Assembly (NCBI GenBank): GCA_008682415.1
Contig: VANK01000001.1
Location: 1,240,001 to 1,304,000 of the forward strand
Direction: 5' to 3'
DNA length: 64,000 nt
From: Acidobacteria bacterium AB60
GTDB lineage: Bacteria > Acidobacteriota > Terriglobia > Terriglobales > Acidobacteriaceae
The translations under genes were made by a program, and so were the position numbers. The notes below the pieces were generated by a model. That model searched no databases. It was not told where the DNA came from and saw nothing but the letters and a program-made list of their open reading frames with translations. This document shows, piece by piece, positions 1 through 56,970 of the stretch; the first letter of the stretch is position 1; the number at the start of each line of letters is the position of its first letter.

Positions 1-1
1 G

Positions 2-3937: not shown

Positions 3938-3965
3938 GAGAGTCCGTCGGCGAGTCAGCATCCCT

Positions 3966-8846: not shown

Positions 8847-8966
8847 GGCCGAGGTTTGGCGGGGGTGGTTTCCGAAGGTGTCGGCGAGAAGGCTGCGCGA
8901 GTGAAATCGAGAACGTTCAGGCGGGGAACGAGGGGCTCAAAATTGTTCGGATCAAGGGAGTTTGGG

Positions 8967-8994
8967 TTGACCGCAGCACAGCTGCTGATACACT
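8967..8994 (+). promoter_or_regulatory. sigma70-like promoter of the exopolysaccharide locus
   Basis: TTGACC (8967-8972) and TACACT (8989-8994) are separated by 16 bases and match the -35 and -10 consensus at five and four of six positions. The spacer contains a short inverted repeat, GCAGC-ACA-GCTGC, that could bind a regulator. Transcription would start near 9001, about 380 bases before the first glycosyltransferase start. Confidence 0.5.
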
Positions 8995-9000
8995 AAAGGT

Positions 9001-9316: not shown

Positions 9317-9382
9317 ATGGCCATCGCGAGAGAATTCGCCGCAAGGCCGGAGTCTGGCGCTCCTGAGAAGTGGTGGAGCGCG

Positions 9383-10567: not shown

Positions 10568-10687
10568 GCGAGGACGAGCAGTCCGTCTCAACGCGAATCC
10601 GTACTGGACAGCTGGCTTCTGCTCGACCATCGCCGCTGGGAGCAAGACCAGATTAAACTCGCCACCACGCAGAATTCAGGAGTATCA

Positions 10688-12961: not shown

Positions 12962-12962
12962 G

Positions 12963-13901: not shown

Positions 13902-13943
13902 CTCCGGATGCAGCCTTAGATATCCGCCACAGCTTACTAACTA

Positions 13944-15077: not shown

Positions 15078-15153
15078 TTCACAGGTGAATACAGTTCACA
15101 GCTGCTCTTCCTCCGTCGACGAGTCGGGCACAGCATTGCAAAAGCGCGAACGG

Positions 15154-17753: not shown

Positions 17754-17770
17754 GTACGGAGGTTAGAGGT

Positions 17771-19084: not shown

Positions 19085-19164
19085 TAAGAGCGAACGCACT
19101 GCTCCGGGGGATCTCATTTTCAGCTGTGGCTGGAAGGGATCTATCAAAGGATCAGAGTTAAAGC

Positions 19165-19998: not shown

Positions 19999-20107
19999 TC
20001 TACGGATCGCATCGTGCTGTGCCGAATCCCGACGCCCTAGTAACTGGGAACTCGATAAGTCGTGCCAACCATCTTCTCCTAACACACTTAAAAACCTCGA
20101 ACGCCAC

Positions 20108-21061: not shown

Positions 21062-21126
21062 GGGAAACGCCCCGAACGGTTTTTCCTACCTGGTCATGCA
21101 CGCGTTCGCGTCGCGAGGATTAGTTT

Positions 21127-23210: not shown

Positions 23211-23362
23211 TGCGCCGAGTCTAGCAGCGCATGACGCGCTTGTCCAGCTACTCTTCGCAGCCACGATATCACATTGGTTGACCTTTTACCTGCGCCTAAG
23301 ATGCGACCATTCAACGTCGTGGCCGACTCTGTGACTTATCCACGTTTTCGGAGAATCATATT

Positions 23363-24451: not shown

Positions 24452-24507
24452 ACTAAGGGAGGGAGCACTTTGTTGCGAACATGCGATCCGATTAGGAGCT
24501 GGTACGA

Positions 24508-24984
24508 ATGAAGAGCTTGATCTCTCGGATTCTAGACAAGGTCCTCTCCTGGCACGAATCATATAAGAAAGAAAACCTCAAATCATCGCTTGGCTCCTGT
24601 GGCGCTCGCGTTTGGCTTGGTCATGAGGTAATCATCTGGAGCACCGACAACGTTATTCTCGAAGATGACGTCGCGATTAACAGTTTTACTCATGTCTTCG
24701 GCGCCGGCGGTGTGCGTATTGGAGCGCGTACGCTCATATCCGCGTGCTGCTCCATCTCTTCGGTGACTCATCCCGAGCCGGTGGCTGAGCGGAGAATCGG
24801 AATCGAGCTGCCAGTGGTAATTGAAGAAGACTGCTGGCTTGGAACGGGAGCGATCGTGCTTCCGGGTGTACGAATCGGCAAGGGTAGCATCGTTGCGGCT
24901 GGAGCCGTTGTCACAAAAGACATCCCTCCCCTTTCGGTTGCGATGGGAGTTCCCGCCCGCGTTGTTCGCCAAATCAGGACATAG
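24508..24984 (+). CDS. left-handed beta-helix acyltransferase (hexapeptide, WcaF/maltose-acetyltransferase type)
   Basis: The ATG at 24508 has AGGAG 9 bases upstream. The 158-residue product has hexapeptide repeats (VILEDDVAINSF, VRIGARTLISA, CWLGTGAIVLPGVRIGKGSIVAAGAVVTKDI) that fold as a left-handed beta-helix trimer. The catalytic His sits in SSVTHPEP, and the C-terminal VAMGVPARVVRQI is the usual acetyltransferase ending. It probably transfers an acetyl group from acetyl-CoA to a sugar of the polysaccharide precursor in the cytoplasm. The flippase gene starts 9 bases downstream. Confidence 0.88.
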   Translation: MKSLISRILDKVLSWHESYKKENLKSSLGSCGARVWLGHEVIIWSTDNVILEDDVAINSFTHVFGAGGVRIGARTLISACCSISSVTHPEPVAERRIGIELPVVIEEDCWLGTGAIVLPGVRIGKGSIVAAGAVVTKDIPPLSVAMGVPARVVRQIRT

Positions 24985-24993
24985 AAGCGCTAA

Positions 24994-26289
24994 ATGACAT
25001 ATACAATCTTTTCCCGGATAAGCCGTCGCGTTTCCACCTTTGTTGGGGGCCAAAGTTCGGTTCAGCTATTGAATGCCGTAACTGGCCTCTTACTCCTGCG
25101 CCTGCTTTCTAAGCCGGAGTTTGCGATCTACTCCATTGCGCTGGGGCTGCAGGGAACCATCGCGATCCTCACGGATCTTGGCTTCGGGGGGGCCATTGGC
25201 GGTCTGGTAGGGACTCGCTATCGGGACAGGCGGGTTTTGGGGAGCTATATCGGAGCAGCCAGTTACATAAGGCGCATCTTGATGCTCATTGTCAGTGTGA
25301 TTGCTGTGATCTCCGTTGCCGCGCTTCGAAACGTGCCCATCGAAGGCCACAGCAGCAAAGAAGTCGTCTTTCTTGCGTGCGCAGTGTTGGTGACCGTGCA
25401 GTTTCAGGCATGGGCTTCGTACTATGAGGTGCCGCTACTTTTGAACAACCGGCTCGTCTCCTACTACAGCCCGCAAATTGCTGCAGCGGTTGTTCGCCTG
25501 GCCAGCGCTCTCGTATTGTTCTACCTGCACCTGATTACATCGACGACGATGGTGCTTGCCAATACTTTGAGCATCGTATTGATGGGTCTGTCGTACCGGT
25601 ACCTCTCACGGCCATGGATTGAAGTACCAAAGGCGCTCCCACGGGAGCAGGCCAAGGAAATGATTCGCTTTCTGCTGCCTCTTGTTCCCGGCTCCGTGTA
25701 CCAGGCTTTACAGGGACAGGTCTCATTATTTCTGATCACGGTGTTCGGACATGTCGGACAGATTGCGGAGGTGGCAGCGGCGGGTAGAATTGGCCAACTG
25801 TTCCTACTTCTCAACTCCTCGAACAATGTGCTTGTCGGACCATTTTTTGCAAAGACGCCGCGTTCCCTTTTCCCGCGTCGGTATCTTTATTCACTTTGCG
25901 CTTTCGGCGCCGTTGCCGCCCTCGTGGCACTCTCGGCGTACGAGGCTCCCGGACTTTATCTTCTATTGCTCGGAGCGAAATACCGGGACTTGACCGCACA
26001 GGTGCAACTGGTTGTCTATGCATCGGCGATCGCGTACTTTGCAGGCGCAATGTGGGCGGTAGCCGTGGCCCGGAAGTGGATATTCTGGTGGAGTGGGTCG
26101 TTGCAAATCGTGCTGCTGACCGCGATACAGATCGTTTGCGCTTTAACGCTGCCTTTGAATACGTCCGAAGGAGTTCTCATGATGGGCATCTTCACTGCCT
26201 TGGGCGCCCTGCTCGTGCAGGTCGTTCATGTGGCTCAGGGCATGTTCGCGCACGCTAGAATGCAAGAGACGGAAGCGGTGCCCTCGTAG
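24994..26289 (+). CDS. Wzx-like polysaccharide flippase
   Basis: This 431-residue protein has about twelve predicted membrane helices. It begins FVGGQSSVQLLNAVTGLLLLRLLSKPEFAIY, the characteristic first helices of the MOP/PST exporter superfamily, and has the small-residue-rich loop LTDLGFGGAIGGLVG. It lies 9 bases after the acetyltransferase gene, so it is in the same operon. Its task is inferred to be flipping the undecaprenyl-linked repeat unit to the periplasmic face for the Wzy-like polymerase. It is the last polysaccharide gene of the locus. Confidence 0.82.
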   Translation: MTYTIFSRISRRVSTFVGGQSSVQLLNAVTGLLLLRLLSKPEFAIYSIALGLQGTIAILTDLGFGGAIGGLVGTRYRDRRVLGSYIGAASYIRRILMLIVSVIAVISVAALRNVPIEGHSSKEVVFLACAVLVTVQFQAWASYYEVPLLLNNRLVSYYSPQIAAAVVRLASALVLFYLHLITSTTMVLANTLSIVLMGLSYRYLSRPWIEVPKALPREQAKEMIRFLLPLVPGSVYQALQGQVSLFLITVFGHVGQIAEVAAAGRIGQLFLLLNSSNNVLVGPFFAKTPRSLFPRRYLYSLCAFGAVAALVALSAYEAPGLYLLLLGAKYRDLTAQVQLVVYASAIAYFAGAMWAVAVARKWIFWWSGSLQIVLLTAIQIVCALTLPLNTSEGVLMMGIFTALGALLVQVVHVAQGMFAHARMQETEAVPS

Positions 26290-40938: not shown

Positions 40939-41484
40939 TCAGTCTACCGGGATGCCGGCGATTGAGAAAGAACCGATGTGCACATCGACCTTGTCGCCGG
41001 GGTGCACGATCTTGCCCTCGTTTCCGAAGACCATCCAGTAGGTGCGGTTTTCGACGGGCGGTGCGGTCTGCCGAAGTTGACCGATCTTTTCCATGACGGG
41101 AACGGTCAAGCGAGCTCCGCTCTTGCGATCGAGCACGTAAGGCTGAAATTTTTTCTCGTTGAGAGGTGCGGCCTTGGCCGCATCGATCACGTTATATCGG
41201 AACTCGAGCATGTGGCCGGAGGAGACGATGTGGATGCCGAGAATATCGACGCCCCAGTTGCGCTTGTAGTACGTGGCCTCGCGCATTCTCCATGCCTGGA
41301 TGGCGTTGAAGATGTCTTGGCGGGTGGACGGTGAGGGACTGGAGGCGATCCGGGCGGTTTCAGAAGCAGGCCGGTCACTTTCCAGCAGCCTCTGCGCGCG
41401 GGCGCTGCGGGAGGAAGCCCCGTTGCCCGCGAAGATGATCGCGAGCAACGGGAAGACGAGGCAGGGCTTGTTCAACGGGATCAT
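40939..41484 (-). CDS. small secreted protein of unknown family, coupled to the giant surface protein
   Basis: The ATG at 41484 overlaps the giant gene's stop (ATGA), so the two are translationally coupled; the longer frame to 41631 covers the giant gene and is rejected. The 181-residue product has a signal peptide (MIPLNKPCLVFPLLAIIFAG, cleavage near ARAQR). The soluble domain has GVDILGIHIVSSGHMLEFRY, then PYVLDRKSGARLTVPVMEKIGQLRQ, then WMVFGNEGKIVHPGDKVDVHIG. It looks like a compact beta-sandwich. I cannot name the family. The Met, His and Lys content does not show a clear metal site. Its context suggests an exported partner of the copper-oxidase operon. Confidence 0.75.
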   Translation of the reverse strand: MIPLNKPCLVFPLLAIIFAGNGASSRSARAQRLLESDRPASETARIASSPSPSTRQDIFNAIQAWRMREATYYKRNWGVDILGIHIVSSGHMLEFRYNVIDAAKAAPLNEKKFQPYVLDRKSGARLTVPVMEKIGQLRQTAPPVENRTYWMVFGNEGKIVHPGDKVDVHIGSFSIAGIPVD

Positions 41485-44400
41485 CTTGCTACCCCATTGA
41501 GCGACACAACAACCGGAGACGAGGACTGATCGTATCCGATGGTGAGCGTGCCGGTGCTTGTTCCGGGAGCGGCCGGCGTGGTGAACGTGACCGCGACCGT
41601 GCAGGTAGCTCCGGAGACAAGGTTGATGCAATCCGATGTGGTGGTGAACAGGGGGTTGCTGCTGACAGGGGTAATGCCGGTGGCAGCGGTGTTGCCCTTG
41701 TTGGTGACCAGCACGGATTGGGCGACGGGGGTTCCGCCCGCCGCGGCGGTGAAGCTAAGAGCCGCGGGCGACACGACCAAGTAGCTGCCCGATCCCGTAA
41801 GGCTCACGGTCTGGCCTGCGATGGTGAGGGTGGCCGCGAGCTGACCGGTAGCGTTGGGAGTGAATGCAACCTGCAGCGTGCATTGGCCGTTGGCCGGGAT
41901 GTTGAACCGGCAGGTACCGCCGCGAGCAATGGAGAAGGCATCCGGGTTATCGCCACTGAACGCAAGCCCATTGACTGGGATGGCGTTTCTTGAGCTGTTG
42001 ACGATTGTGAGAGTCTTCGGCGCAGTGGCCGCGAAGATGGGCTGGGTGCCGAAGGAGAGCGCAGCCGGAGCGACGCTAACGGTGGAGCCCGTTCCGCTGA
42101 GGGAGACGAGCGGAACGTTATTGACGGTCAGGGCGCCGGTGCGGTTCTGGGGGAAGTTGCCCGGCGCGAAGGTGACACCAGCGATGCAGGTGCCACCCGC
42201 GTTGAGGGTTTGCCCCTGGCATCCCGTGAAGGCGAAGCCATTGCTCGCCGCGAGCGTGAGCCGCTGCGCGGTTGTGCCGACGTTCTGGAGCGTGACCGAC
42301 TGCGGCGCGCTGGCGGTGTTGAGGAGGACCGAACCGAAGGAGAGCTGGTTCGGACTGGCCGTGATGGTGCCGTTCACACGGGTTCCGGTCAAGCTGACAA
42401 CCTGACTGCCGGCACTGGAGGTGACGGTCAGGGTAGCGGTGCCGAAGCCGGTGGGAGCGGGGTGGAAGGTGACGTTCAGCACGCAGGTGCTTCCTCCGTT
42501 GAGGATCTGCTGCGCGGCGCAGGTGCTGCCGGCCGCGGCGGTGTACTGCGGGCTGGAGAAGGCGAGAGAGTTCACGGTGAGCGCCGTCGTGCCGGTGTTG
42601 GCCACTGTGACCGACAGCGGACCGCTGGTGGTGTTGACCGGTACGTTGCCAAAGGCAAGCGAGCCCGGCGTAACGTAGAGCTGCGGCAGCACGCCGTGGC
42701 CCGCGAGGGATACAGACTGCTGGTGGCCCGCGCCGTCGGTAACCGTGAAGGTCTGGTTCCTCTGGCCCGTGGAGTTGCCCGGGGCGAAGGTGATGCTCAG
42801 GGTGCAGCTGGCCTGCGCGCCGAGATTGAAGCCGCAGGTGCTGCTGGTGCGAGCGAAGGGAGCCGCGATTTGCCCAATGCCGACGGTGGTGCCGGTGGCG
42901 CCGGTGTTGGTGATGGTGATGACGGTCGGAGCGCTGGTGGTGTTTAGCGCGACACCGCCGAAGTCGACCGCGCTCGGGCTGATGACCAGTCCAGCTGCGG
43001 GGACCGATCCGCTGAGAGCGACGGACTGCCCAGCGATGTTGAGGCTGGCGGCAAGGCCGTTGGTCGACGCGGGCGTGAAGACCACGTTGATGATGCAGCT
43101 GTTTCCGACTGCCAGGTTTCCGCTGCAGGTGGACGTGTTCTGGACAGCGAAGGCGAGGCTGCCAGTGATGGCAGGCGTGACAGCAACCGCTGCGGTGCCG
43201 TTATTCGTGACGGTTACGACCTGCGCACCGCTGCTGGTGTTGAGGAGTTGAGGAGCGAAGACGAGCGATGCCGGAGCGATCACAAGTCCCGAACCGGTGC
43301 CGCTGTATTCGTCCGCACCGATGTCGTACGCGCCGCCGATGGGCCGGTGCTGTCCGTCAATGTCGCTGGCGGGAGCAAAGCCGGTGAGGAAGCTGCCGAC
43401 ATTGCCTGCATTAAAGGCCGATCCCGCGGCGGCAGCGAGGTGATAATCGCCGAAGGAGACGCCGTTCGCATCGGTTTGCGAAAGCGGGCCGTAGCTCAGC
43501 GAGACGAAGTTGCCGGCCTCGTCCAGCGTGGCGGATACAGAGATGTTGGGAGACGGCAGGAACGGCTGCTGTGGTTCCCAATATTGACCGAACTGGGTCC
43601 GGGGTCCATTGCAGTACTGCTTGGCCAATCCGGGTGCTGTGGCGACGTTGTGCGCGTTGGGGTAGAGGGTGACGTCCGTCAGGACCGAGTATGACGGCTT
43701 GAGGCTGGCGAAGGTGGACGTTGGCGAGAGGTCCCCGATGACGCCGAGGTCCCAGTACTTGCTGCCGTTCAGGCTGCAGGCGTAGGTCGGGTTATCGGGA
43801 AGAACGGTGCAGTTCTTACCCGAGTCGGCGACGTTGTTCGAGGAGCAGAGCTTGCCAGTTCCGGAAGAACCGTCGAAGAAGAAGGAGCGGTTCTGCCAGA
43901 TGATGTTGTTGAGCAGGCTGGCGGGAATGGAGACAGCGCGGGCGAGATAGGCGTTCTCCGCAGCGTTCCATCGAGCAAGCTGCTGTTGATACTGCTGGTT
44001 CGTTTGCCCCGGCTGCTGCACCGGACGCGCTCCGGGATTGGACGCGCCGTACGCGCTGAGGAGCGCAGGCGTGGTGTAGTCGCTGCTGATGCCTGCGGGA
44101 CTGGGAGTTCCGGTCATGGGGCCGGCGTTGGCGCCGATGACGGCTCCGGCGATGCCGGTGCTGTCATTGGAGCTGATGGTGTTGTTGATGATGGAAGTAT
44201 TGGTGGCGTCGGCGAGGGCGATGCCACCCCCGGCCCATCCGGCCACGTTGTTCACGACCATGTTGTTGGTGAGGGTGACCTTGAACCCGGCGGTGAAGCG
44301 GCTGACCTCAGAGCCGTTGACGTACTGCAGACGGATGCCGCCACCGCTGCCGCCCTGAGCGAAGTTGCCCTGAATGACGTTGGAGTCAACCGTGACGTTC

Positions 44401-47400
44401 CCAGTGCCGAGAGTCAGCGCCGTTCCTGTCGGCGGTTCACCCTCGATGGCGAGACCGCCGCCATTAGTTGCTGAGGTCTGGCTGTAGCTCTGGTTGAAGA
44501 GGATCTTGTTGTTGGCGATGACGCCGTTGAGGCTGAGGCCGAAATGGGCGAGGCCGCCTCCGTCACCGGAGCTGAAATTCCCGCAGATGAAGTTATAGTT
44601 GACCAGGTAGTTGTCTGTGCCAGTGCAAATGGAGATTCCTCCACCTGCGCCTGCTGAGGAAGCTGCCGTCGCGCCGGCTGCCGCATTGGCTTCCACGGTG
44701 CCATTGGTGGTCACCGCGTTGTGGTGGATCTTGACGTTGGAGTCGTAGTTATACGGTCCCTCGCCCACCAGACCCTCGAGATAGGGCTGACCGATGCGGA
44801 TGCCACCATTGTAGGTGCCGGCGTTGCCGAAGACGCGGTTGTTGGAGATTTCCAGGTTGGTAGCCCAGCCGTTGACGTAGATGCCGCCGCCGGAATCGCC
44901 GCCCGTAACGCTGAGGCCGTCGATGCGGGAGGCGTGATTGGAATAGCTGTTAGGGCCGTAGGTGGTGCGTCCGAAAAAGCCGGCTGCAGCGTCCTGCTTG
45001 CCGAGAACCGTGATGCCGGCGCCCTCTTCAGTGCTGAGAACGCTGGGTTCGAGCTGGATAACGCCACCGGTGACCTCCTGGCCAGGAAGAGGATCGACAA
45101 TGGCCGGAAGAGTTTGATTGCCCTGCGCGTCGATGCCGAAGAGCGCATTGATCTTCGCCCGCCAGTTCTCGAGCTTCTGGGTGGGGTACTTGGTGGCATT
45201 GATGGTGACGGAGGGAGCGCCGACGCCCTGCAGACGAACGGGCTTCCACATGATGACGAGTTCCGGATAGTTGCCTGCCTGGAGAAGGATCAGATCCCCG
45301 GGGTTAGCGGCGTCGATCGCATCCTGAATCGGCGTCGCCAAACCAGTGTCGGTGGCGGCGTTCGATGGAGAAACGTAGATCGGCACACGATATCCGGGCT
45401 TGGTCGAATCGTCGATGGTGATGGTCACGGTGTCGACGGACTTGACACCGTTGTCACCGCGGGTGATGCCCAACTCGTAGGCGCCCGTCGCAAAGGTGGA
45501 GGGCACGGTTACGGTAATCACGCCGTCGCTCCAGAAGACGTTGGCGGGGCTGATGGCAGTGTTGCCGAGCATGATGGTGCCCTTGGTGGCGCCGAAGCCG
45601 AAGTCCCGGGTAACGAGTTTCTGCGCGGCATTGGCAGCGCCCGTGAAGTTCTGGGGGCCGCTGTAGTCGGGGTTAGGGATAAGAGCTTTGCCCAGCGAAT
45701 AGATGGTCAGAGTCATCGTCTTCGCCTTGTCGAGGTACGGACCCCACTTGCCATTCCCATCCACTTCCTTCACGGCCGGCGTGCCCGTGGGATAGGCGCA
45801 GTCAACGGGGTTGTACTTGGCGGCAAAAGCCGCCACTGGAAGGACCGGTGTATCGAGATAGGTGGTGATACCCGGCATGAAAGGCCACGTATAGCAGAAG
45901 TTGCTGTACATGGGGTTGTACATGGGGTCGGTGACCATCTTGCCCGAGCCGGCCGGATCGAGAATCGGACCCGGATCGTTCATGCAGGTGATGAGCATGT
46001 TCGGGGAGTAGCCGCTCGGATTGGGAACATTAGCGTCCCAAGTGGATGGCGTGAGCCCGTTGAACTGTCCCCACTTGTCGGTGTAGACGCGCTGAATCTC
46101 GATGCCGTTGAAGTCCTTGATCGAGACTGGCGCGTTGGGGAGAGCCTCCTTCTCGCCGAAGCTGGGGGATACCTGGTTAAATTCGGCGGCGGCGTCGTTG
46201 AGCATCATGCCGGTGAAGTGCGCAGCGATGGGTGCCGGCGTGAACACCTGGAAATCGGCGTTGGCCTGGCTCTGGTCTTGGAGAAGCACTTCTTTGCGGT
46301 TGCAGAGATTGCGCGACTGCCCCGCGAACGGTGCGACCTGCTGAATGTCGGGGAACAGGTTAAGGTAGTCGGGGACAATGTGTGTCTCGCCCACGCACGG
46401 CGGAAGCGCGAACTTCTGTGAAGGGATGAAGCTGGCATCCAAGGTCGCTTGATCCGGCAGGATGAAGAGGTTGGTCAAGCTGCCGAACTGCTGCGCGACG
46501 GGAGCGATCCAGGCATCCCCCATGAGAATGTTTTTGTCTTCTTCTTTGACGATCTCGTAGCCGGAGGGAGGAACCACTTCCACCACATACTTGCCGGCGG
46601 GAAGAACGTTGGGATAGGTGAGATTGTTGGGATTGAGAGCCGGGTTGTTATTCGCAGGGCTCGGCTTGCAAATGGTGCAGTTCGCCGAGGGGAATGTGTA
46701 CCGGCCATCGTATTGGGCAGGCTGAATCTGGTTGAAATTGTGCATGCCGTCGTAGCACTTATCCACCTGGTTGCTGCCGATGGTGAACTGGACGAAGGGA
46801 TCGCTGGGATCCTGGCCAGGACAGTGCATGTTCGGCACGTTGTCGTCCCAACTGCTGGTTGTGGTGCTGTCAATCAGCTTGAGTGAAGTGGTGCCGTCAG
46901 GATTGGTCGTTTCCTGATAAAGATTGACGGGGACGCGCGGAACGGCTGGTTCCCAGGAAAACTGAACTTCGAGGCGCGGATCGTCGAAACCGCGTGTTGA
47001 AGCGTAATACACCATACCCTGGATACCGCCGGTCTCGCCAGCAACATACGGCGTCTTGCCCCAGTCGATGTTATTGACCTGGCTAATAAAGCCTTGCATG
47101 CCCTCGTAGAGAATCGAACCGTCATCGTAGCGCGGTCCCGTTCCCTGCGGATCCGCAGCGTTGGGCTGAGGATTCAGGATGCCGTTGTACAGCGTGGAAT
47201 ACGGGTTGCTGGGGTTGCAGAAGTTCGGCAGAGCAGCGCCGGCCCCCGTGTTCTGTGCGGTGTTCGATGAGCAATTCACCGGGCCGCCGTTGTCTACCGC
47301 AACTCCCACTTTCGTTCCCTTGAATCGGGTGGTATCCGATTCGGCCACGTACCAGTTGAACAACGGAAAGAGCTGCTGGAACGGAGCCATGCCGTCCGAA

Positions 47401-50400
47401 TCGGTAGTCAGCAGATTGCTAATGCTGCCGTCACGGAAACGAATGGTCATGGGGATCTGCTGAATGCCAGGCTCGCCCGCATCGCGCTTGCCGTTCTGAT
47501 TGAGATCGAGGAAGGCGGATTGGTTGAGTGTCGTAAACCAGCTGAACACCGCCACGTCGCCCATGGCCACCGTCTGCTTATCGGCGTTGCTCGGTACCGT
47601 CACTGCCTTGTAGGCGATAATCTGATCCAGCCACTGATCGAAGACCACCAGCGAGTACGTTCCGGGCGGTATGTTGGCAAGCGTGAACTCGCCGGTAGTG
47701 GGATCGCACTCAGCGAACGCCACGTCCGCGGCCTGGCCGGCGCCGGAGTTGAGGCCGACGTAGCACTGCGTAAAGTTGAGAGCGTCGCGGGTGCCGCTAT
47801 CCCACAGGTTGATCTTTGGCGGCCGATCCATATGCAGGTTCGTCACCTTGCCCGTGATCGTATTCGTGCCGCCCAGTTTCGCGTTTACCTCTTTGATGTG
47901 ATCCGGATTCAAGAACCCTATGAAGGTGTGGAAGCCCGGAGAGCCGAACTCCTGGAAGTAGGCAGGCTCGCCAACCTTTGCGAAGGCGTCCTGATTGAAC
48001 GTGCCTTCCAGGGTCGAGACCTGGTACCACTTCTCGCCCTTGCCGTCGCGCACAGCGCCCGGGAATGCGGCTACGTCATAGCGCATAGCCATCAGATTCT
48101 TGACCAGCGCCATGCCCGCCAAAGGCGAGCCGTCCGGACAGGTGATAATCACGCCGGTTGGCGTACCCGGCGGCACAGAGCCGGGGCAATCGGGCTGACC
48201 GAGCAGCGCATTGCTGAGCGGCTGACCCGTCGCGTCGTAGAAGACCTGTCCGGCTGGATCGCCGGTGCTGGAGCGCACGTCGAAGATCTTGATGTCGAAT
48301 CCGCCAAGACCGGGTTCGCCTTCATCTTCGTCGCCGTTAGTGGGGTTGTTGTCTTCGAAGATAAAGATGCTCAACTGGGCCGGCGCCAGGGGCGACGGTT
48401 CCAGCTTAACGGTGACCGGAGCGCTTGCTCCCGTGAACTCGCTGCCACCCGTGGTGTGGGCGCTGCTGCTGGCGTCGCCAGGAAGAATGGAGATGTAATA
48501 CCGACTGTTAGGATCGCCCGGAGTGACGTTGGGGAGCTGGACCTGGTCAGGAGTGCTGTAGGGCTCGCGCGGCGCAGCCGCACCCATCACCGTCTGCGAA
48601 GCACCACAGCTGAGCGGGCCGGTGCAGCCGGTTGCAATGAGGGGCATGTAGCTCTTGTGAAAATTGGTGCCGAGGCTCTGCGGCGGGTTTCCGGCCGGGC
48701 CGGCCGATTCCGTCGTATCCCGGGGCCATGTCACATCCTGCTCAATCGTCCACTTGTAATCCAGCGGCGTAGGCAGGCTGGCCAGGCTCTTCGCATCCAC
48801 CAGCGACACGACGGGCCCGTTGCCGGCGGGGAAGTTGAGAGTGATTGTTCCTGAAGCCGTCTGGCCCTGGGCGTTGGTAGCGGTATAGGGGAAGCTGAAG
48901 ACTGCAGCGCCGGCCGCATTGGAGCTAGCGGTGAGGGAGCCGTCGGCGTTGAGCGTAACAGTGGCGATGGCCCCATTCGCAGAAAGAGTGAAGGTCTTGC
49001 CTGCAGTGAGCCCTGTTCCGCTCGGCGCAACGCTCAGCTTGTATCCCTGCGAGTCCGTAACGTGCGCAAGGATGCCGGGCGCGGAGACTTTCAGGAGCGA
49101 GCGCACATTGCTCTGAAAGGTCCAATCATTCGCGGTCAGAGTGCCAGACACTGCGGTGACGTTGAGGTTGACGGTTGCAACCATTGCATTGTTGCCGTTG
49201 CCGAAGTAGGTGAATGTGTCGTTCACCGGCGCGCCCAAAGGCGTATAGGTGAAGGTTCCGTCGGCTTTCAGAATCAACGCACCGTGCGAAGGCGAGGTGA
49301 GGAGCGCAGCCGTGTTGATGCCGATGTCATTGGCCAGGACGTTGTTCGAGAACGATGTGGCATTGTGCGGGAGCACGTACGTGTCGTCCACAACGTGCGG
49401 CGTCATGGCTCCTGCCAATCCCGCGCCCGCGACCGTACCGCCGTTGATAGAGAGGTAGGCCTGAATGCCGCCATCGGGACGGTTGCCATTTGAGAGGCTA
49501 AGCTGGCGATCGAAGATGGGGAAGACGGCCGGGGTGTAGGCGGCGGTGGTATTTGGGGCCGCGGGCGTCACCGCCGGGTGTACAAGCACCTCGATCGTCT
49601 TACTGGCTGTAAGGAGAAGCTCAGTCTGCACCTTGGGAACGCCCGGCAGCACGTTGCCATCTTCGGCGACGAGCGACATAGGCAAATTCAGGGTGGCGGG
49701 AATATGCGTGCGCAAGCCCGCGTTGGCAAAGCGCAGCAGGAGATTACTCGAGGCAGCGACACCGCCCGTCTGAAGGGTCGTCGGAGCGGTGCGATCGAAC
49801 GCGTGCCCATTCACGAGAAAGTAGAACGGGCGGTAGTCCACGGCCGGCGGATACTTCGTTTCGTCACCCTTGGCCAGATCCACGGCAGCATTCTGCTTCG
49901 GATCGATTTCGCTGAGCAGCACTACCTGGTCCGCGTCATAAGGTAAATCGGCGAGAGCCGAGCCACCCGAGGGAAAAGCTCCGGGGTGAGATTTGCCTGG
50001 AGTAAAGGGAGAGGCGGTTGGCTCGTTGGTCACAACCAGCACGCCGTAGAGGCCCATGGGCTCCTGGATGGATGGGTGCGTTCCGGTTTCGTACAGGTAC
50101 GTACCGGGGCGGAGGTTGGACCAGGTATAAACTGCGGTGCCTCCGTTGGCGGCAGTTTCCGTGCCAAAGGACTGCACCCGTTGCGGCTGAGCAGGCGGAC
50201 TAAAGGTTCCGTTGCTCGACGCAGGCCAAGTGGTGAGGGACTGGCCCGGGTGCGCCGGGCTATCGGTTTTGGTTGGCGTGCCCAGTCCGCCGCCCCACTG
50301 CCCCAATATGGTGATGGATGTGGGTGTCGGCAGGTTATTGGTGAGTTCGATCTCAAGGGGGCCTGGTTTGACCACGATGGTGGGACCGGGAGCCCAATTG

Positions 50401-50615
50401 GCCGGCGTGGCGCTGCATGGATCGGGGTTGAGACCGCTGCTGGTGCACACATAGCCCCACATGGGGATGGTCTTGCCATCCGGCATGGTGGTCGAAGTCG
50501 GCTGCGCGGCAATCGCAATCTTCGGCGCGGCGGTTCCGGTCAGATCGACTGTCTGGGCAGAACCGGTCGCGGCGGCCATCAAAAGGGTCGCAAAGGCAAA
50601 AAAAAGCTTCTTCAT
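41481..50615 (-). CDS. giant exported multidomain protein: degenerate multicopper-oxidase domain, SdrD/Cna-B modules, beta-helix, ASH repeats
   Basis: The ATG at 50615 (GAGAGA upstream) gives about 3044 residues; GTG 50627 is an alternative. Order, with rough residues: signal peptide (1-22); two cupredoxin-like domains (25-400) homologous to the adjacent oxidase but without copper ligands (GTYLYETGTHPSIQEPMG in place of YHSH, RTHIPATLNL in place of HPFHHHG); Ig/VCBS-like modules (410-600); SdrD/Cna-B-like modules (FLDLNQNGKRDAGEPGI near 1030, YVVEVVPPSGYEI near 1345); an IPT-like domain (near 1680); a right-handed parallel beta-helix (1745-2250, many N-N-x-I/V turns); a choice-of-anchor Q element (DIDGQHRPIGGAYDIGADEY, near 2430); and six ASH/choice-of-anchor-D repeats to the end. 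No sortase motif or membrane anchor is seen. It lies 47 bases after the second oxidase gene. Confidence 0.88.
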   Translation of the reverse strand: MKKLFFAFATLLMAAATGSAQTVDLTGTAAPKIAIAAQPTSTTMPDGKTIPMWGYVCTSSGLNPDPCSATPANWAPGPTIVVKPGPLEIELTNNLPTPTSITILGQWGGGLGTPTKTDSPAHPGQSLTTWPASSNGTFSPPAQPQRVQSFGTETAANGGTAVYTWSNLRPGTYLYETGTHPSIQEPMGLYGVLVVTNEPTASPFTPGKSHPGAFPSGGSALADLPYDADQVVLLSEIDPKQNAAVDLAKGDETKYPPAVDYRPFYFLVNGHAFDRTAPTTLQTGGVAASSNLLLRFANAGLRTHIPATLNLPMSLVAEDGNVLPGVPKVQTELLLTASKTIEVLVHPAVTPAAPNTTAAYTPAVFPIFDRQLSLSNGNRPDGGIQAYLSINGGTVAGAGLAGAMTPHVVDDTYVLPHNATSFSNNVLANDIGINTAALLTSPSHGALILKADGTFTYTPLGAPVNDTFTYFGNGNNAMVATVNLNVTAVSGTLTANDWTFQSNVRSLLKVSAPGILAHVTDSQGYKLSVAPSGTGLTAGKTFTLSANGAIATVTLNADGSLTASSNAAGAAVFSFPYTATNAQGQTASGTITLNFPAGNGPVVSLVDAKSLASLPTPLDYKWTIEQDVTWPRDTTESAGPAGNPPQSLGTNFHKSYMPLIATGCTGPLSCGASQTVMGAAAPREPYSTPDQVQLPNVTPGDPNSRYYISILPGDASSSAHTTGGSEFTGASAPVTVKLEPSPLAPAQLSIFIFEDNNPTNGDEDEGEPGLGGFDIKIFDVRSSTGDPAGQVFYDATGQPLSNALLGQPDCPGSVPPGTPTGVIITCPDGSPLAGMALVKNLMAMRYDVAAFPGAVRDGKGEKWYQVSTLEGTFNQDAFAKVGEPAYFQEFGSPGFHTFIGFLNPDHIKEVNAKLGGTNTITGKVTNLHMDRPPKINLWDSGTRDALNFTQCYVGLNSGAGQAADVAFAECDPTTGEFTLANIPPGTYSLVVFDQWLDQIIAYKAVTVPSNADKQTVAMGDVAVFSWFTTLNQSAFLDLNQNGKRDAGEPGIQQIPMTIRFRDGSISNLLTTDSDGMAPFQQLFPLFNWYVAESDTTRFKGTKVGVAVDNGGPVNCSSNTAQNTGAGAALPNFCNPSNPYSTLYNGILNPQPNAADPQGTGPRYDDGSILYEGMQGFISQVNNIDWGKTPYVAGETGGIQGMVYYASTRGFDDPRLEVQFSWEPAVPRVPVNLYQETTNPDGTTSLKLIDSTTTSSWDDNVPNMHCPGQDPSDPFVQFTIGSNQVDKCYDGMHNFNQIQPAQYDGRYTFPSANCTICKPSPANNNPALNPNNLTYPNVLPAGKYVVEVVPPSGYEIVKEEDKNILMGDAWIAPVAQQFGSLTNLFILPDQATLDASFIPSQKFALPPCVGETHIVPDYLNLFPDIQQVAPFAGQSRNLCNRKEVLLQDQSQANADFQVFTPAPIAAHFTGMMLNDAAAEFNQVSPSFGEKEALPNAPVSIKDFNGIEIQRVYTDKWGQFNGLTPSTWDANVPNPSGYSPNMLITCMNDPGPILDPAGSGKMVTDPMYNPMYSNFCYTWPFMPGITTYLDTPVLPVAAFAAKYNPVDCAYPTGTPAVKEVDGNGKWGPYLDKAKTMTLTIYSLGKALIPNPDYSGPQNFTGAANAAQKLVTRDFGFGATKGTIMLGNTAISPANVFWSDGVITVTVPSTFATGAYELGITRGDNGVKSVDTVTITIDDSTKPGYRVPIYVSPSNAATDTGLATPIQDAIDAANPGDLILLQAGNYPELVIMWKPVRLQGVGAPSVTINATKYPTQKLENWRAKINALFGIDAQGNQTLPAIVDPLPGQEVTGGVIQLEPSVLSTEEGAGITVLGKQDAAAGFFGRTTYGPNSYSNHASRIDGLSVTGGDSGGGIYVNGWATNLEISNNRVFGNAGTYNGGIRIGQPYLEGLVGEGPYNYDSNVKIHHNAVTTNGTVEANAAAGATAASSAGAGGGISICTGTDNYLVNYNFICGNFSSGDGGGLAHFGLSLNGVIANNKILFNQSYSQTSATNGGGLAIEGEPPTGTALTLGTGNVTVDSNVIQGNFAQGGSGGGIRLQYVNGSEVSRFTAGFKVTLTNNMVVNNVAGWAGGGIALADATNTSIINNTISSNDSTGIAGAVIGANAGPMTGTPSPAGISSDYTTPALLSAYGASNPGARPVQQPGQTNQQYQQQLARWNAAENAYLARAVSIPASLLNNIIWQNRSFFFDGSSGTGKLCSSNNVADSGKNCTVLPDNPTYACSLNGSKYWDLGVIGDLSPTSTFASLKPSYSVLTDVTLYPNAHNVATAPGLAKQYCNGPRTQFGQYWEPQQPFLPSPNISVSATLDEAGNFVSLSYGPLSQTDANGVSFGDYHLAAAAGSAFNAGNVGSFLTGFAPASDIDGQHRPIGGAYDIGADEYSGTGSGLVIAPASLVFAPQLLNTSSGAQVVTVTNNGTAAVAVTPAITGSLAFAVQNTSTCSGNLAVGNSCIINVVFTPASTNGLAASLNIAGQSVALSGSVPAAGLVISPSAVDFGGVALNTTSAPTVITITNTGATGTTVGIGQIAAPFARTSSTCGFNLGAQASCTLSITFAPGNSTGQRNQTFTVTDGAGHQQSVSLAGHGVLPQLYVTPGSLAFGNVPVNTTSGPLSVTVANTGTTALTVNSLAFSSPQYTAAAGSTCAAQQILNGGSTCVLNVTFHPAPTGFGTATLTVTSSAGSQVVSLTGTRVNGTITASPNQLSFGSVLLNTASAPQSVTLQNVGTTAQRLTLAASNGFAFTGCQGQTLNAGGTCIAGVTFAPGNFPQNRTGALTVNNVPLVSLSGTGSTVSVAPAALSFGTQPIFAATAPKTLTIVNSSRNAIPVNGLAFSGDNPDAFSIARGGTCRFNIPANGQCTLQVAFTPNATGQLAATLTIAGQTVSLTGSGSYLVVSPAALSFTAAAGGTPVAQSVLVTNKGNTAATGITPVSSNPLFTTTSDCINLVSGATCTVAVTFTTPAAPGTSTGTLTIGYDQSSSPVVVSLNGVAR

Positions 50616-50662: not shown

Positions 50663-52168
50663 TTACTGGGTCTCGTCGATGGCGGAGGCGCACCCTGACT
50701 TAGCCACCCGGCAGGGGGCATCGATGATCAGCATCATCATCATTCCTCCGGGGAACACGTCATTGGTGGTGATCTCGCGTTCGTCGTGGGAGTGCCACAT
50801 ATACGCGTAGCCCGCCCCGGGGTTCACGCCGTCCGATCCTGGAGGGAGGCCAGGGCCGCCGTCGCCCAGATACGGCGAGCCGCCGTACCAGAGTCCGTTC
50901 GCCACGATGTTCGGATCGGCCTGCGTGATGGGGAATGGCTTACCGTGATCGGGGCAGTACTCATAGGTTGCCGTATCGAAGGGCATCGTCGACGAGATGG
51001 GGGTGCAGGTGTGCGCAACGTTGGGCCCATAGACGTCCCAGTTCAGGCCCTGTCCTGTCCAGGTAAAGATGCCATCCAGAGACTGGCCCGAGACCGTGGG
51101 CACAGTAAAGACGAGCGGACCTGCGAGGCTGGTTCCATCGGGAGCGAGCAGAAGATTGCCGTCCCGCGCCAGCACGCGGATGTGGTTGCCGTGATGATGG
51201 AAGGGATGCTGCAGGCGTCCCTGGCCGATGACCCGCATCAGTACCTTCTCGCCGGGGTGCATGTGAGGGTTGCCGTTGTAGGGCTGATTCGGATAGGCCA
51301 TTGAATACGAGGCATCCATGTCATCGGGCATCGAACGCCCGTTCACGAGAAAGTAGCTCGGGAGATACGGCTCGGTCTCGACGGCGATGGAAGGTGCGTT
51401 GGCCTGCACCTGTGCCTCCACCTGCTGGTGGACAGCGAGCTTCATCTCAGAGAACTGAAACAGGTACTCGCGATCGAAGCAGGAGAGTGCGTGATCGTAC
51501 GCGGCACCAGGGTAGCCGGGTGAATCGAGCGCCTGGGGGACGCTTGCGGCACAACCAAGCTGGGCGGGCGTCTTTGCCGGATAGACGATGATGGCGCCAA
51601 ACAGGCCCATCTCGATCTGCAGGTCGGGACGGCTGCCGCTGTAGTAGGCATAGGTCCCTGGCTTGGTTGCCGTGAAGGTGTAGCTCACGGCGGTGCCCGG
51701 AACCGTCACGTTTTGTAAATTGACGGTGGTGGGCGTGGCTTCAGCGGCGAGGACGCCGGGAACGCCTCCTGTGGAGTTCACGGAAAATCCCGGAAAGACC
51801 ATTGAGGTGTTGCCGGCCGATGCGGGCAGCATGTTCGTGAGGTTCACAGTGACGGTGTCCCCCTCGCCGACGATCAGCGTGGGACCGGGTATCTGGATGT
51901 TGGGGCACGTTCCTGCGAAAGGAACGAAGCCGGGGTTGGAGCCTACGGAGCAGCTGTAGCCCCACGAGTAGATCATGGCGCCGTCGGGCTGCGAGATGTA
52001 GTCAGCCTTGGCGGTCAGGTTGAAGGTCAGGGACTTACCGGGTGTGCGATCCCCAATTCCCGGCACTGCGGCTCTAGCCGACGGCACAATTACCGCCATC
52101 AGCATGACTGCGAAGATCGCGATACCTCGCGTTTTCGTCATTTTCATTGTCAACACCATGCGATCCAT
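50663..52168 (-). CDS. exported cupredoxin protein carrying the type-2/3 His motifs of a multicopper oxidase
   Basis: The ATG at 52168 follows GAGGAG, with only 9 bases after the upstream gene. The 501-residue product has a signal peptide to about residue 33 (PSARA). The first cupredoxin (45-200) has lost its ligands: KPGTYAYYSGSRPDLQIEMG takes the place of the WYHSH motif. The second carries HPFHHHGNH (residues 321-329) and YMWHSHDERE (H459, H461). The Cys of the type-1 site is replaced by Ser460, so this protein alone cannot hold type-1 copper. The upstream gene encodes the missing half. It is probably periplasmic or extracellular, and its substrate is unknown. Confidence 0.85.
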   Translation of the reverse strand: MDRMVLTMKMTKTRGIAIFAVMLMAVIVPSARAAVPGIGDRTPGKSLTFNLTAKADYISQPDGAMIYSWGYSCSVGSNPGFVPFAGTCPNIQIPGPTLIVGEGDTVTVNLTNMLPASAGNTSMVFPGFSVNSTGGVPGVLAAEATPTTVNLQNVTVPGTAVSYTFTATKPGTYAYYSGSRPDLQIEMGLFGAIIVYPAKTPAQLGCAASVPQALDSPGYPGAAYDHALSCFDREYLFQFSEMKLAVHQQVEAQVQANAPSIAVETEPYLPSYFLVNGRSMPDDMDASYSMAYPNQPYNGNPHMHPGEKVLMRVIGQGRLQHPFHHHGNHIRVLARDGNLLLAPDGTSLAGPLVFTVPTVSGQSLDGIFTWTGQGLNWDVYGPNVAHTCTPISSTMPFDTATYEYCPDHGKPFPITQADPNIVANGLWYGGSPYLGDGGPGLPPGSDGVNPGAGYAYMWHSHDEREITTNDVFPGGMMMMLIIDAPCRVAKSGCASAIDETQ

Positions 52169-52177
52169 CGCGTCTCC

Positions 52178-53599
52178 TCACTTCACGACGATTTCGGTCA
52201 TCATGCCGCCGAAGTTTTCATTGAAATTCGACAGATGATCGAGGTTAGAGCTGTAGAGGAAGTAAGTGCCTGGGGGAACATCGGTCGCGTCAAGGATCAC
52301 GTCCGCTGATTCGCCTCCGCCCAGCGTGACGGAGTTGGTCAGGTAGGTCATATCATTGCCGGCCATGTCGCGAAGAAGACGCGCATCGATACCGACTACG
52401 CGCATGGGGATTCCCACCGTAGCGAGAGTGGTGAACTCGGTCACGCTGAGGTCGGAAAGGCGCAGCAGGGCGCGAGTCTGGCCGGCGCTCTTGTTGATTG
52501 TGATCAACGTCGGCAAGGGCTGGCTGGGGCGCGACTGGCCGTCGGAACCCTCGGTTTCCATGGGCCCCGCACTCACGGTGTCCGGATAACCGCGGCCGCT
52601 CAGCAGGAAGTACTTGTCTTTCATGCCGGCGAAGCTCTCAGGATTGAAAGTGGTGCCTACGTAGTGGAAGAAGGGATCGAAACCCATCATCTGTACGGGG
52701 AACTCGACGTCGTAGCGGGTAGAGCCATCACCATCGTTGTACGCGTAGAGATTCCCGCGCACCTCGCTGGGATTTGCAGGCACGGGTGTCTGCCCAGTGC
52801 AGAGGATGTCAGAACAGCCGATTCCGGATGTCGCTCCGGGGGCCTTGGCATTCTCGGTCTGCAGGATAGAGGCCAGGGATTTGCCGGCGAACGAGGGATC
52901 GGATTGAAGGCGATTTTGGCGAGGTCGTACGTACAGTTGTCCGACCATGCCCATTTGCAGGTGCTCAGGCGGCGTGATGTGGCAGTGCCAGAAGTAGGTT
53001 CCAGCGTCCGGGGCGGTGTAGTAGTAAGTGAAGCTGCCGCCGATATTGATGGCCACCGATGCATCCGGCACTCCATCGAAGTACGATGAGGCGTTGGGAT
53101 AGCCGTGGAAGTGCACGGTGTGCTGCTCGAAGAGATCGGGCCGCATGATCATGCCCACGTTGGAGAGAGTCAGGAACAACTCATCGTCTTCGTCCATCGA
53201 GATGAGCGGCGCCGGAGCATTGGCGTTCAACACGCCCACGTTCATCATGTCAGCCGGCCTGACAAGTCCCGTAGCCGCATCGAGAAGGCCGACGGCGCCA
53301 TTAGGGTCTCCACCTCCCAGATTGAAGGTGGTGTTGGTCTCCGTGCCGGAAAGACCGCTCTTGATGTCGGCGAGGCCCGACAACGGACCGAAACCAAAAA
53401 GATAGATTTGCGTGCCGTCGGCCATGGTGGCGAAACCGTCGCCGCCCGAGACCTCCTGACATTTGATTCCCTTACCGGAGGGATGCAAGTTCGTTGTAGT
53501 TGGACACTGGACCCGGAAGGACTGAGCCTTCGCAGCAAGGAGTGACATGCCGAACAAAAGTGCACACAGTGCACAGCGGTGCGTGGATCTCAATTTCAT
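52178..53599 (-). CDS. exported cupredoxin protein carrying the type-1 copper site of a multicopper oxidase
   Basis: The ATG at 53599 starts a signal peptide (MKLRSTHRCALCALLFGMSL, cleaved after AKAQ); the longer frame to 53710 has no export signal. The 473-residue product has one ligand-rich cupredoxin. HTVHFHG (H160, H163, H165) matches the H-x-x-H-x-H-G motif. YFWHCHITPPEHLQMGM supplies H205, C206, H207, H213 and axial M218 of a type-1 site. A second cupredoxin near the C terminus (GTYFLYSSNLDHLSNFNENFGG) lacks ligands. The next gene starts 9 bases downstream and supplies the complementary His motifs. It is the first gene of the operon, under two inverted repeats. Confidence 0.87.
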   Translation of the reverse strand: MKLRSTHRCALCALLFGMSLLAAKAQSFRVQCPTTTNLHPSGKGIKCQEVSGGDGFATMADGTQIYLFGFGPLSGLADIKSGLSGTETNTTFNLGGGDPNGAVGLLDAATGLVRPADMMNVGVLNANAPAPLISMDEDDELFLTLSNVGMIMRPDLFEQHTVHFHGYPNASSYFDGVPDASVAINIGGSFTYYYTAPDAGTYFWHCHITPPEHLQMGMVGQLYVRPRQNRLQSDPSFAGKSLASILQTENAKAPGATSGIGCSDILCTGQTPVPANPSEVRGNLYAYNDGDGSTRYDVEFPVQMMGFDPFFHYVGTTFNPESFAGMKDKYFLLSGRGYPDTVSAGPMETEGSDGQSRPSQPLPTLITINKSAGQTRALLRLSDLSVTEFTTLATVGIPMRVVGIDARLLRDMAGNDMTYLTNSVTLGGGESADVILDATDVPPGTYFLYSSNLDHLSNFNENFGGMMTEIVVK

Positions 53600-53753
53600 T
53601 TGATCTCCGGACGACGCACCATCCCCATCCAGGCAGATGCCCGCGTCGCGCTCAGTAGTCAGCAAAGAAGGAAGCGAGGGACAGAAGCGGTCCCAGGAAG
53701 CAGCGCGCAAGTCACTTGGGAAGGGGGCCCGTAACCAGCCGCATAGACAGTAT

Positions 53754-54424: not shown

Positions 54425-54567
54425 AAAAGGGACTAGGTCAGCCGCGGAAACCGCGCGCGGATACCCTTGGCTTCAGCTTAGCGTCTCTTTGTGGTCGGGG
54501 AGTCGATAAGATGGCAGTCTGCACCCCTGAGCGTGAGGTTCGAGTGTCTAAAGGTCGACGGGCGACG

Positions 54568-56970
54568 ATGAGGCAACAGAAACCAAAATTCCTGCTGCTT
54601 GTGCTATGCACACTGATGCTGGTCCTCACGGCATGGCCAAGCGAGGCGCAAAGAATGCTCAAGGCTAATGAGCCAGAACACAGGGGGCTCGGCCCTCTGC
54701 TCGATCCCTTGATGCAGAAGGCAGTCACGGATGGGAGCATTCCCGGGGGAGTGCTGGTGGTGGGACATCACGGAACCATCATCTATCGCAAGGCGTTTGG
54801 ATCGCGCTCAGTTGAGCCGCGGCGCGAACCAATGACGGTTGGCACGATCTTCGATCTGGCTTCCCTGACGAAGTGCGTGGCAACCACCACGGGGGTGATG
54901 CAGCTGTTCGAACAGGGGCGCGTCCGGCTTAATGATCCGGTGTCAGCCTATCTGCCGGAGTTCGCGCAGAACGGAAAACAGGACATCACCGTTCGTGAAT
55001 TGATGACGCACTACTCAGGACTCGCCCCGGACCTTGATTTGAGCAAGCCATGGATAGGGCGGGATGCGGCCTTCCAAATGGCCATGGCACAGACGCCAGA
55101 GCATCCGCCGGATAGCCGATTTGAGTACAGCGATATCAACTTTGAGGTGCTGGGATTCCTGGTAGAACGGGTGAGCGGTGAGCCGCTGAATCAGTACGTC
55201 GAGCGACACGTTTTTGCACCGCTGGGAATGCGGCATACGCGATTCCTTCCTCCCGAGGTCTGGCGCAAACAGATCGCTCCAACGCAGTTCGATGAAAATG
55301 GGGCGATGCTACGGGGCCTGGTGCATGATCCAACCGCGCGGCGTATGGGCGGCGTAGCCGGGCACGCCGGACTGTTCGCAACCGCGGACGACCTTGCCGT
55401 ATTCGCGCAGGCACTGCTGAGCGGTGGGCGGGTGATGCATCGCACGACCTTGGAGAAGATGGTCACTCCGCAGCAGCCAGCAAATGCCGCAAACCTGCGC
55501 GGTTTGGGTTGGGACATCGATTCGCCGTTCGCGAGCAATCGCGGCGAACTGCTGCCGGTGGGCTCGTTCGGCCATACAGGGTTCACGGGAACATCTCTCT
55601 GGATCGATCCGGTGACGGACACCTACATCGTGCTCCTGACCAACGCAGTGCATCCGCGTGGCGGGAAATCGGTCGTGAGCCTCCGGGCTCGGGTGGCTAC
55701 GGCGGTAGTGCAGGGTTTGCGGCTCACCGTGCCGGAACAGGAGAAGCTGCGCCTGGCACGTACTACCGGGTACAACGAATCACTGATGGCTGCACGCCGG
55801 ATGCAGCACCGCAATGGAACGGTGAAGGTTGGAATCGATGTTCTCGAGGAGCATGCATTTCACGAATTGCACCCCGACGAACGCCGGCCAGTCAGGGTCG
55901 GACTCGTGACAAACCAGACGGGCCTGGATGCACAAGGGCGACGCACCATAGATGTGCTGGCGCATGCTCCCGGAGTGCAGCTCGCAGCCATCTTCAGCCC
56001 GGAGCATGGGATTGGAGGGGCTGCGGAGACGACTGAAATCGCGGATACTCAGGATGCGGCAACGGGGGTGACAGTCCACAGCTTGTACGGCAGCACGGAT
56101 GCAAAGCGGCGTCCCGATCCTGCTGTGGTGGCCCAGTTGGATCTGCTGGTATTCGATATTGCCGATGTAGGAGTTCGGTTTTATACCTACGAAAGCACAT
56201 TGGGGTACTGCCTGGAGGCGGCAGCGAAGGCCGGAAAAGAGATCGTGGTCCTGGACCGGCCCAATCCCGTGAACGGCGCGTTTGTGCAGGGCCCGGTCGC
56301 CGATAAACGACGAGAAAGCTTCGTCGGCTACGGGCAAATCCCTGTGCGGCACGGAATGACCATGGGCGAATTGGCCCGCATGTACAACGCCGAGAGGGGC
56401 CTGGGAGCGCAGCTGACAGTTGTACCCATGGAGGGGTGGATGCGCGGCGACTGGTTCGATTCCACGGGATCAGGATGGGTGAATCCTTCGCCGAACCTGC
56501 GCAGCCTGGAGGAGGCTACGCTCTATCCGGGAATCGGCATGATTGAGATGTCGAACCTCTCGGTAGGTCGCGGGACCGACACGCCCTTTGAGGTTTTGGG
56601 CGCGCCATGGGTCGACGGTATGGCCTTGGCAAGATATCTGAATGCGCGCGAGATCGCAGGGGTGCGGTTTGTGCCCGTACAATTTAGGCCAACCTCCGCC
56701 GCGTACGCAAGTCAGGAATGCGGGGGCATCCACCTGCTGTTGACGGATCGCGATGCGCTAGACGCACCCGAAGTCGGCTTGGAGGTGGCCGCAGCGCTCT
56801 GGGCCCTCTATCCCGAAAAGTACCGGCCAGACGAGGTTGACACTCTGATGCTAAACAAAGCGAGTATCGAAGCGCTGAAGCGCGGAGAAGATCCGCGGCG
56901 CATCGCCCAGGCTTGGCGGCCGGGACTGGAACGGTTCGAAAAGACGCGATCAAAATATCTTCTGTACTAA
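54568..56970 (+). CDS. serine hydrolase fused to NamZ-type exo-beta-N-acetylmuramidase (DUF1343, GH171)
   Basis: The ATG at 54568 starts a signal peptide (LLLVLCTLMLVLTAWPSEAQ); the longer frame to 54511 is rejected. The product has 800 residues. The N-terminal beta-lactamase/class C domain (about 40-410) has the S-x-x-K nucleophile in LASLTKCV (S100, K103), the Y-x-G element HYSGL and the HTG box in SFGHTGFTG. The C-terminal DUF1343 domain starts near residue 420 (VKVGIDVLEEHAFHEL) and contains IFSPEHGIGG, SLYGST and VLDRPNPVNG, all typical of NamZ. Both halves act on cell-wall material, so a role in peptidoglycan turnover or recycling is inferred. Confidence 0.88.
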   Translation: MRQQKPKFLLLVLCTLMLVLTAWPSEAQRMLKANEPEHRGLGPLLDPLMQKAVTDGSIPGGVLVVGHHGTIIYRKAFGSRSVEPRREPMTVGTIFDLASLTKCVATTTGVMQLFEQGRVRLNDPVSAYLPEFAQNGKQDITVRELMTHYSGLAPDLDLSKPWIGRDAAFQMAMAQTPEHPPDSRFEYSDINFEVLGFLVERVSGEPLNQYVERHVFAPLGMRHTRFLPPEVWRKQIAPTQFDENGAMLRGLVHDPTARRMGGVAGHAGLFATADDLAVFAQALLSGGRVMHRTTLEKMVTPQQPANAANLRGLGWDIDSPFASNRGELLPVGSFGHTGFTGTSLWIDPVTDTYIVLLTNAVHPRGGKSVVSLRARVATAVVQGLRLTVPEQEKLRLARTTGYNESLMAARRMQHRNGTVKVGIDVLEEHAFHELHPDERRPVRVGLVTNQTGLDAQGRRTIDVLAHAPGVQLAAIFSPEHGIGGAAETTEIADTQDAATGVTVHSLYGSTDAKRRPDPAVVAQLDLLVFDIADVGVRFYTYESTLGYCLEAAAKAGKEIVVLDRPNPVNGAFVQGPVADKRRESFVGYGQIPVRHGMTMGELARMYNAERGLGAQLTVVPMEGWMRGDWFDSTGSGWVNPSPNLRSLEEATLYPGIGMIEMSNLSVGRGTDTPFEVLGAPWVDGMALARYLNAREIAGVRFVPVQFRPTSAAYASQECGGIHLLLTDRDALDAPEVGLEVAAALWALYPEKYRPDEVDTLMLNKASIEALKRGEDPRRIAQAWRPGLERFEKTRSKYLLY

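Follow-up and report, generated by a model that had tools for sequence, protein, structure and literature searches.

The window analyzed here, a stretch of 64,000 nucleotides from contig VANK01000001.1 of Acidobacteria bacterium AB60, carries four adjacent minus-strand genes which in order of transcription encode two multicopper oxidase (MCO) subunits (A and B), a giant exported protein (G) and a small exported protein (E) (Table 1). Genes A and B lie directly upstream of G, with 9 nt between A and B and 47 nt between B and G, or 35 nt if G begins at an alternative GTG start at 50627. The open frame of gene A reaches a TTG at 53710 (52178-53710), and from the sequence the ATG at 53599, with GGAG ahead of it, is most likely its start. 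The divergent neighbour on the plus strand (54511-56970) encodes an 819-aa chain that joins a beta-lactamase-family domain to an exo-beta-N-acetylmuramidase NamZ. No tRNA was found in the 64-kb window, and the G+C content falls from 60-66% (positions 1-16000) to about 55% (16001-26000), with a drop in GC skew.

Table 1. Genes and modules of the cluster, in positions of the window; residue numbers refer to the product of G.
Feature	Position	Strand	Remarks
Gene A (oxidase 1)	52178..53599	-	473 aa from ATG 53599; two-domain multicopper oxidase subunit
Gene B (oxidase 2)	50663..52168	-	501 aa; two-domain subunit, 3g5w domains 1 and 2 aligned by profile
Gene G	41481..50615	-	single uninterrupted ORF; exported giant, 3044 aa, cupredoxin subunit C fused to arm D
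Signal peptide of G, residues 1-20	50556..50615	-	Sec-type, MKKLFFAFATLLMAAATGSAQ, read by eye
Cupredoxin pair (C head), residues 30-393	49437..50528	-	profile and model; copper ligand motifs absent
Big_9 Ig-like domain, residues 406-485	49161..49400	-	profile and model
Arm D, conserved middle, residues ~610-1614	45774..48788	-	many invariant Asp/Cys/Trp
SdrD_B domain, residues 1033-1110	47286..47519	-	profile match 6e-13
IPT-like domain (tentative), residues ~1615-1735	45411..45773	-	weak Foldseek matches: CGTases 6e-4, EBF3 IPT 0.07
Right-handed beta-helix, residues ~1742-2327	43635..45392	-	model; 8ja4 Z 19.8, 2pyh Z 19.4
Choice-of-anchor Q domain, residues 2395-2437	43305..43433	-	score just under cut-off
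Six ASH / choice-of-anchor D repeats	41481..43268	-	profiles; missing from a number of homologues
Gene E	40939..41484	-	181 aa, exported; conserved fourth gene; ATG overlaps G stop by 4 nt

The initial annotation of this DNA described G as one exported chain of 3044 residues, without giving its strand, and named a false joining of several genes as a possible error. The frame is confirmed. G-related ORFs in the same genome, in the genus and in dozens of other genomes are comparable in length (median 2837 aa) and share its module order, and this common architecture rules out that G is several genes wrongly joined. At three loci (L055, L086, L096) the giant frame is split into two or more ORFs, through either real decay or sequencing error.

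A search of G with Pfam and NCBIfam profiles matched ASH/choice-of-anchor D in six stretches, SdrD_B, Big_9, a remnant of Cu-oxidase_3 and, below threshold, choice-of-anchor Q. Two AlphaFold2 models of parts of G were also built, from alignments of 36 and 32 homologues and with modest mean pLDDT of 72 and 67. The modules listed in the initial annotation (cupredoxin pair, Ig, SdrD-B, IPT-like, beta-helix, choice-of-anchor Q and six ASH repeats) are recovered, the IPT-like domain tentatively. About residues 29-405 are predicted to adopt the two-domain laccase/multicopper oxidase fold (3gdc, 2zwn, 3g5w; Z ~24.5, rmsd 3.0-3.4 Å over 265-280 residues), and Big_9 is followed by a second Ig-like domain reaching about residue 594. 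The middle of the arm is ~50% identical between phyla. Searched against the PDB, the whole of G gave zero matches by phmmer and a profile of its middle (A3) gave no convincing one, and the structure matches listed for the head model are filled by cupredoxins, so that the middle folds are barely covered. The module directly before the beta-helix tentatively fits, in its model, the weak matches to cyclodextrin glycosyltransferases and to the IPT domain of EBF3, while the beta-helix itself is modelled with the fold of alginate epimerases and polysaccharide lyases (Z 19.8, 3.1 Å, 323 residues). The ASH repeats are optional, because tail composition varies among the 56 homologues scanned (choice-of-anchor D in 32, choice-of-anchor Q in 38) and some homologues stop directly behind the beta-helix/Q module.

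The copper ligands are divided between the two oxidase genes. The best PDB match of A places its domain 1 on domain 1 of 3g5w (6e-16), and B matches domains 1 and 2 of the same structure (1.5e-13). Jointly, A and B hold all four copper-ligand motifs of the multicopper oxidase superfamily: domain 1 of A has HTVHFHG and HCHITPPEHLQMGM, that is, the type-1 copper site and half of the trinuclear centre, and domain 2 of B has QHPFHHHGNH and MWHSH, the other half, without a type-1 Cys. Domain 2 of A and domain 1 of B are without ligands. The motifs H..H[FW]HG and HCH.....H...GM are present in 84/84 untruncated copies of A and HP[FLYMW]H.H.NH and WHSH in 86 of 87 copies of B, while in none of 81 homologues does the giant's head carry either MCO motif. 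The missing ligand motifs rule out the C head as an active oxidase, and the "oxidase-like head" of the initial annotation is not an oxidase; judged by its sequence, the head is better read as a third, non-catalytic two-domain subunit of the enzyme. In two-domain enzymes the trinuclear centre is made jointly by two protomers, one contributing its domain 1 and the next its domain 2 (PMC13151041), and because of this geometry and the split of the ligand halves, A with B is the only combination here able to build such a centre. Neither A nor B alone can form it, and the enzyme is therefore best read as a heteromeric derivative of the type C two-domain MCOs, in which the active site, to go by the ligand distribution, appears to lie between chains A and B.

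This arrangement of genes is widely conserved. A scan of named genomes yielded 304 relatives of B, and in the loci of the best 80, which come from Acidobacteriota, Burkholderiales, Gallionellaceae and Myxococcota, the order A-B-G on one strand is kept wherever the contig allows; the three exceptions (L043, L056, L071) are all cut by contig ends. Intergenic gaps in the A-B-G loci are mostly -38 to +35 nt. Since these 80 loci had been found through B, 247 Acidobacteriota genomes were searched conversely with the middle of G as query, and B lies near the strong G matches save for two contig-end cases (G093, G213) and one orphan. The orphan (L032, G044:C50, 9350-16207) is a giant of 2285 aa without A or B in which the N-terminal part of the head is missing, and its genome also has a complete cluster (L030). 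The initial annotation had tied the giant to the two oxidase genes and said that homologues occurring without them in most genomes would speak against the tie. Nearly all loci with the giant also have A and B, and the conserved neighbourhood strongly supports the link.

The genome of AB60 has five A-B-G clusters, four besides the window copy. A strong match is present in 3 of the 47 genomes searched in the genus, its own included (two of 46 congeners), and because of this sparse distribution the role of the cluster is accessory. In a tree of B made by a quick method the window copy falls in a mostly pseudomonadotal clade, away from the other four copies of its own genome, a position that from the sequences could reflect either paralogy or transfer. 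Hosts include Paraburkholderia and Acidobacteriota, which are soil- or plant-associated, as well as Gallionellaceae, Ferrovum and Anaeromyxobacter. All cluster genes in the plasmid record AP028202.1 are deposited as 'hypothetical protein', and the CH34 record gives no annotation for them.

The genes that follow G are conserved in part. Members of the E family (about 170 aa) were detected directly after G in 36 of the 57 loci with room for one, and four times in the genome of AB60 itself; a representative of the family has no match in Pfam. Many proteobacterial loci continue with another gene (F), SCO1 and a cytochrome c with one haem; in the window E alone follows G, and none of these three adjoins it. 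Type II secretion-like genes from two or more families occur near the cluster in eleven loci, and Pfam identifies in L112/L050 a secretin with a cohesin domain, pseudopilin methylation motifs and PilO. In L112 the cohesin-bearing secretin (2293-4653) stands beside pseudopilin-like genes upstream of the cluster, possibly as a dedicated secretion route.

Head and arm of the giant are not always one protein. In eight Acidobacteriota genomes (L113-L120) and in two genomes from the search of the family Gallionellaceae, including G407 (L137), the head C is one gene and the arm D another, and G can therefore be understood as C + D. The gene order in this distant clade is D-A-B-C where contiguous, with the split of ligands between A and B identical to that described above. 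In L116 (5854-12699) arm D is fused to oxidase A in a single frame of 2281 aa. A fused A-B or A-B-C frame was not seen among the examined loci, and a single-chain A-B or A-B-C enzyme was dropped from consideration on this ground. Such swapping of partners by fission and fusion is, as far as gene sequences can tell, strong evidence that A, B, C and D would work as one complex. Between C and SCO1, L137 has a family-E protein (8687-9226) and a protein of 753 aa (6406-8667) that weakly matches the Ig region of the arm.

Gene order, ligand distribution, the predicted folds of head and beta-helix and the fission and fusion of parts are what the analysis shows, and from them we infer a heterotrimer with an inter-chain active site and a binding role for the arm. 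That is, A, B and the C head probably form an exported heteromeric multicopper oxidase with its trinuclear centre between chains and arm D as a scaffold. Such an enzyme would derive from the trimeric type C two-domain MCOs, with A, B and the C head as three two-domain units and six cupredoxin domains in all. Electrons from an extracellular donor would enter at the type-1 copper in domain 1 of A and pass by way of the HCH motif to the trinuclear centre, where domain 1 of A would pack on domain 2 of B and O2 would be reduced to water, while the copper-free C head would close the ring as its third unit. The arm, with its Ig, SdrD-type, IPT-like, beta-helix and often ASH modules, would be a long extracellular scaffold tethering the enzyme to a polysaccharide matrix or mineral. 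The initial annotation likewise proposed a scaffold or adhesin that places the oxidase on the cell surface, which is compatible with the beta-helix, Ig and SdrD-type modules but finds no support in an anchor, since no sorting or anchor signal was seen by eye in window G or in the C-termini of the listed homologues, some of which lack the ASH repeats as well.

As to the donor, the products of Slit_1812-1818 in the iron-oxidising Sideroxydans lithotrophicus ES-1, which are predicted to be extracellular and are uncharacterised, reach higher levels in growth on solid magnetite than in growth on Fe(II)-citrate (PMC12016527, Keffer et al. 2025). By homology to the magnetite-induced Slit_1816-1818 we tentatively suggest a metal in reduced form, either mineral Fe(II) or perhaps Mn(II), the proteomic evidence being correlative and from one betaproteobacterium (PMC12016527). 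The system itself is real and conserved; its substrate and its attachment are at the level of candidates.

Other readings have to be weighed against the heteromeric oxidase. The orphan L032 counts against it, though a complete copy is present in the same genome, and together with a head without copper motifs and the adhesin- and lyase-like modules of the arm it could mean that the giant is an independent adhesin or matrix protein that shares an operon with A and B and nothing else, its cupredoxin head a structural leftover without contact to them. We consider this unlikely, since the head keeps the full two-domain laccase fold alongside A and B across phyla, and the partners swap yet stay together: in the distant clade the head is encoded separately next to B, and in L116 the arm and A are one chain.

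Another possibility is a laccase-like enzyme that would act in soil on phenols of plant or humic origin and whose beta-helix arm would bind plant or microbial polysaccharide; this departs from the preferred reading in substrate and not in the split active site. The presence of the cluster in Gallionellaceae, Ferrovum and Anaeromyxobacter, the higher levels of its products with magnetite than with Fe(II)-citrate (PMC12016527) and its SCO1 and cytochrome c neighbours, which suggest a respiratory or metal link, make phenols a rather doubtful substrate, even granted that hosts such as Paraburkholderia and Acidobacteriota live in soil or with plants, that a type B two-domain MCO oxidises phenolic lignin units (PMC13151041) and that the beta-helix comes nearest to alginate epimerase/lyase folds. 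Still less probable is a CueO/CopA-like oxidase that serves copper detoxification and is displayed on the outside of the cell. Efflux proteins judged by eye to be CusA/CusB-like adjoin a few clusters (L119, L067, L087, L132) but are absent at most loci, the weak copper_res_A matches reach a score of 42 of 479 bits, far under the cut-off, and periplasmic detoxification needs no large secreted arm.

Among the closest known systems is Slit_1812-1818, which comprises three cupredoxin proteins, two of them with MCO motifs and a much larger one without, together with SCO1, a cytochrome and small hypothetical proteins (PMC12016527). One of our loci (L136), with the layout A-B-G-E-F-SCO1-cytochrome c, matches Slit_1818-1812 gene by gene. 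The window likewise has three cupredoxin genes in a row, of which two carry MCO motifs and the larger third does not, but its set is A, B, G and E, with no adjoining F, SCO1 or cytochrome c. The module combination that the initial annotation called unusual is indeed so, yet it is not unique, and the cluster has been in print as uncharacterised since 2025 (PMC12016527). The split active site, the fission of head and arm and the extra copies are absent from the published text on Slit_1812-1818 (PMC12016527); new here are an active site divided between two genes, a third subunit that is free of copper and continues into the giant arm, the gene order D-A-B-C, the conservation of E and the presence of five copies in one genome. 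The giant also offers a specific candidate for the contact between an extracellular oxidase and a solid mineral or matrix, which the magnetite proteomics leaves to be explained.

In its arm, G shares SdrD-B and choice-of-anchor Q and D modules with MSCRAMM SdrD/choice-of-anchor surface proteins, but G has no sorting signal and carries them as additions to a cupredoxin subunit; the likeness of its predicted beta-helix to alginate epimerases and polysaccharide lyases is one of fold. Mn(II) oxidases of the MofA/MnxG type are likewise large exported multicopper oxidases tied to metal oxidation, but are described as single chains with all four motifs (PMC8218464). The type C two-domain MCOs (3g5w, 2zwn) are alike in having two cupredoxin domains, a type-1 site in domain 1, as in gene A, which has none in domain 2, and trinuclear ligands divided over domains 1 and 2. 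They carry these ligands in both domains of one chain, however, whereas domain 2 of A and domain 1 of B have lost theirs, and they are homotrimers in which every chain is active, unlike the three different chains proposed here, with one site left and a third chain that is copper-free and bears a giant arm.

A two-domain enzyme that was triplicated has been proposed as the ancestor of six-domain copper oxidases such as ceruloplasmin, and prokaryotic MCOs with six domains have their type-1 site in domain 2 and the trinuclear centre between domains 2 and 3 (PMC3600357). There is a fair chance, if somewhat short of even, that a trinuclear centre between two gene products and a copper-free third subunit with a 2600-residue extracellular arm amount to a naturally split six-domain enzyme, an extracellular mineral-oxidising complex present in at least three phyla. 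If so, this heteromeric form with one surviving site would be a natural counterpart of the triplication step with the genes still separate: it would share with ceruloplasmin and MnxG six cupredoxin domains by count and a single remaining trinuclear centre, with three polypeptides here against one there.
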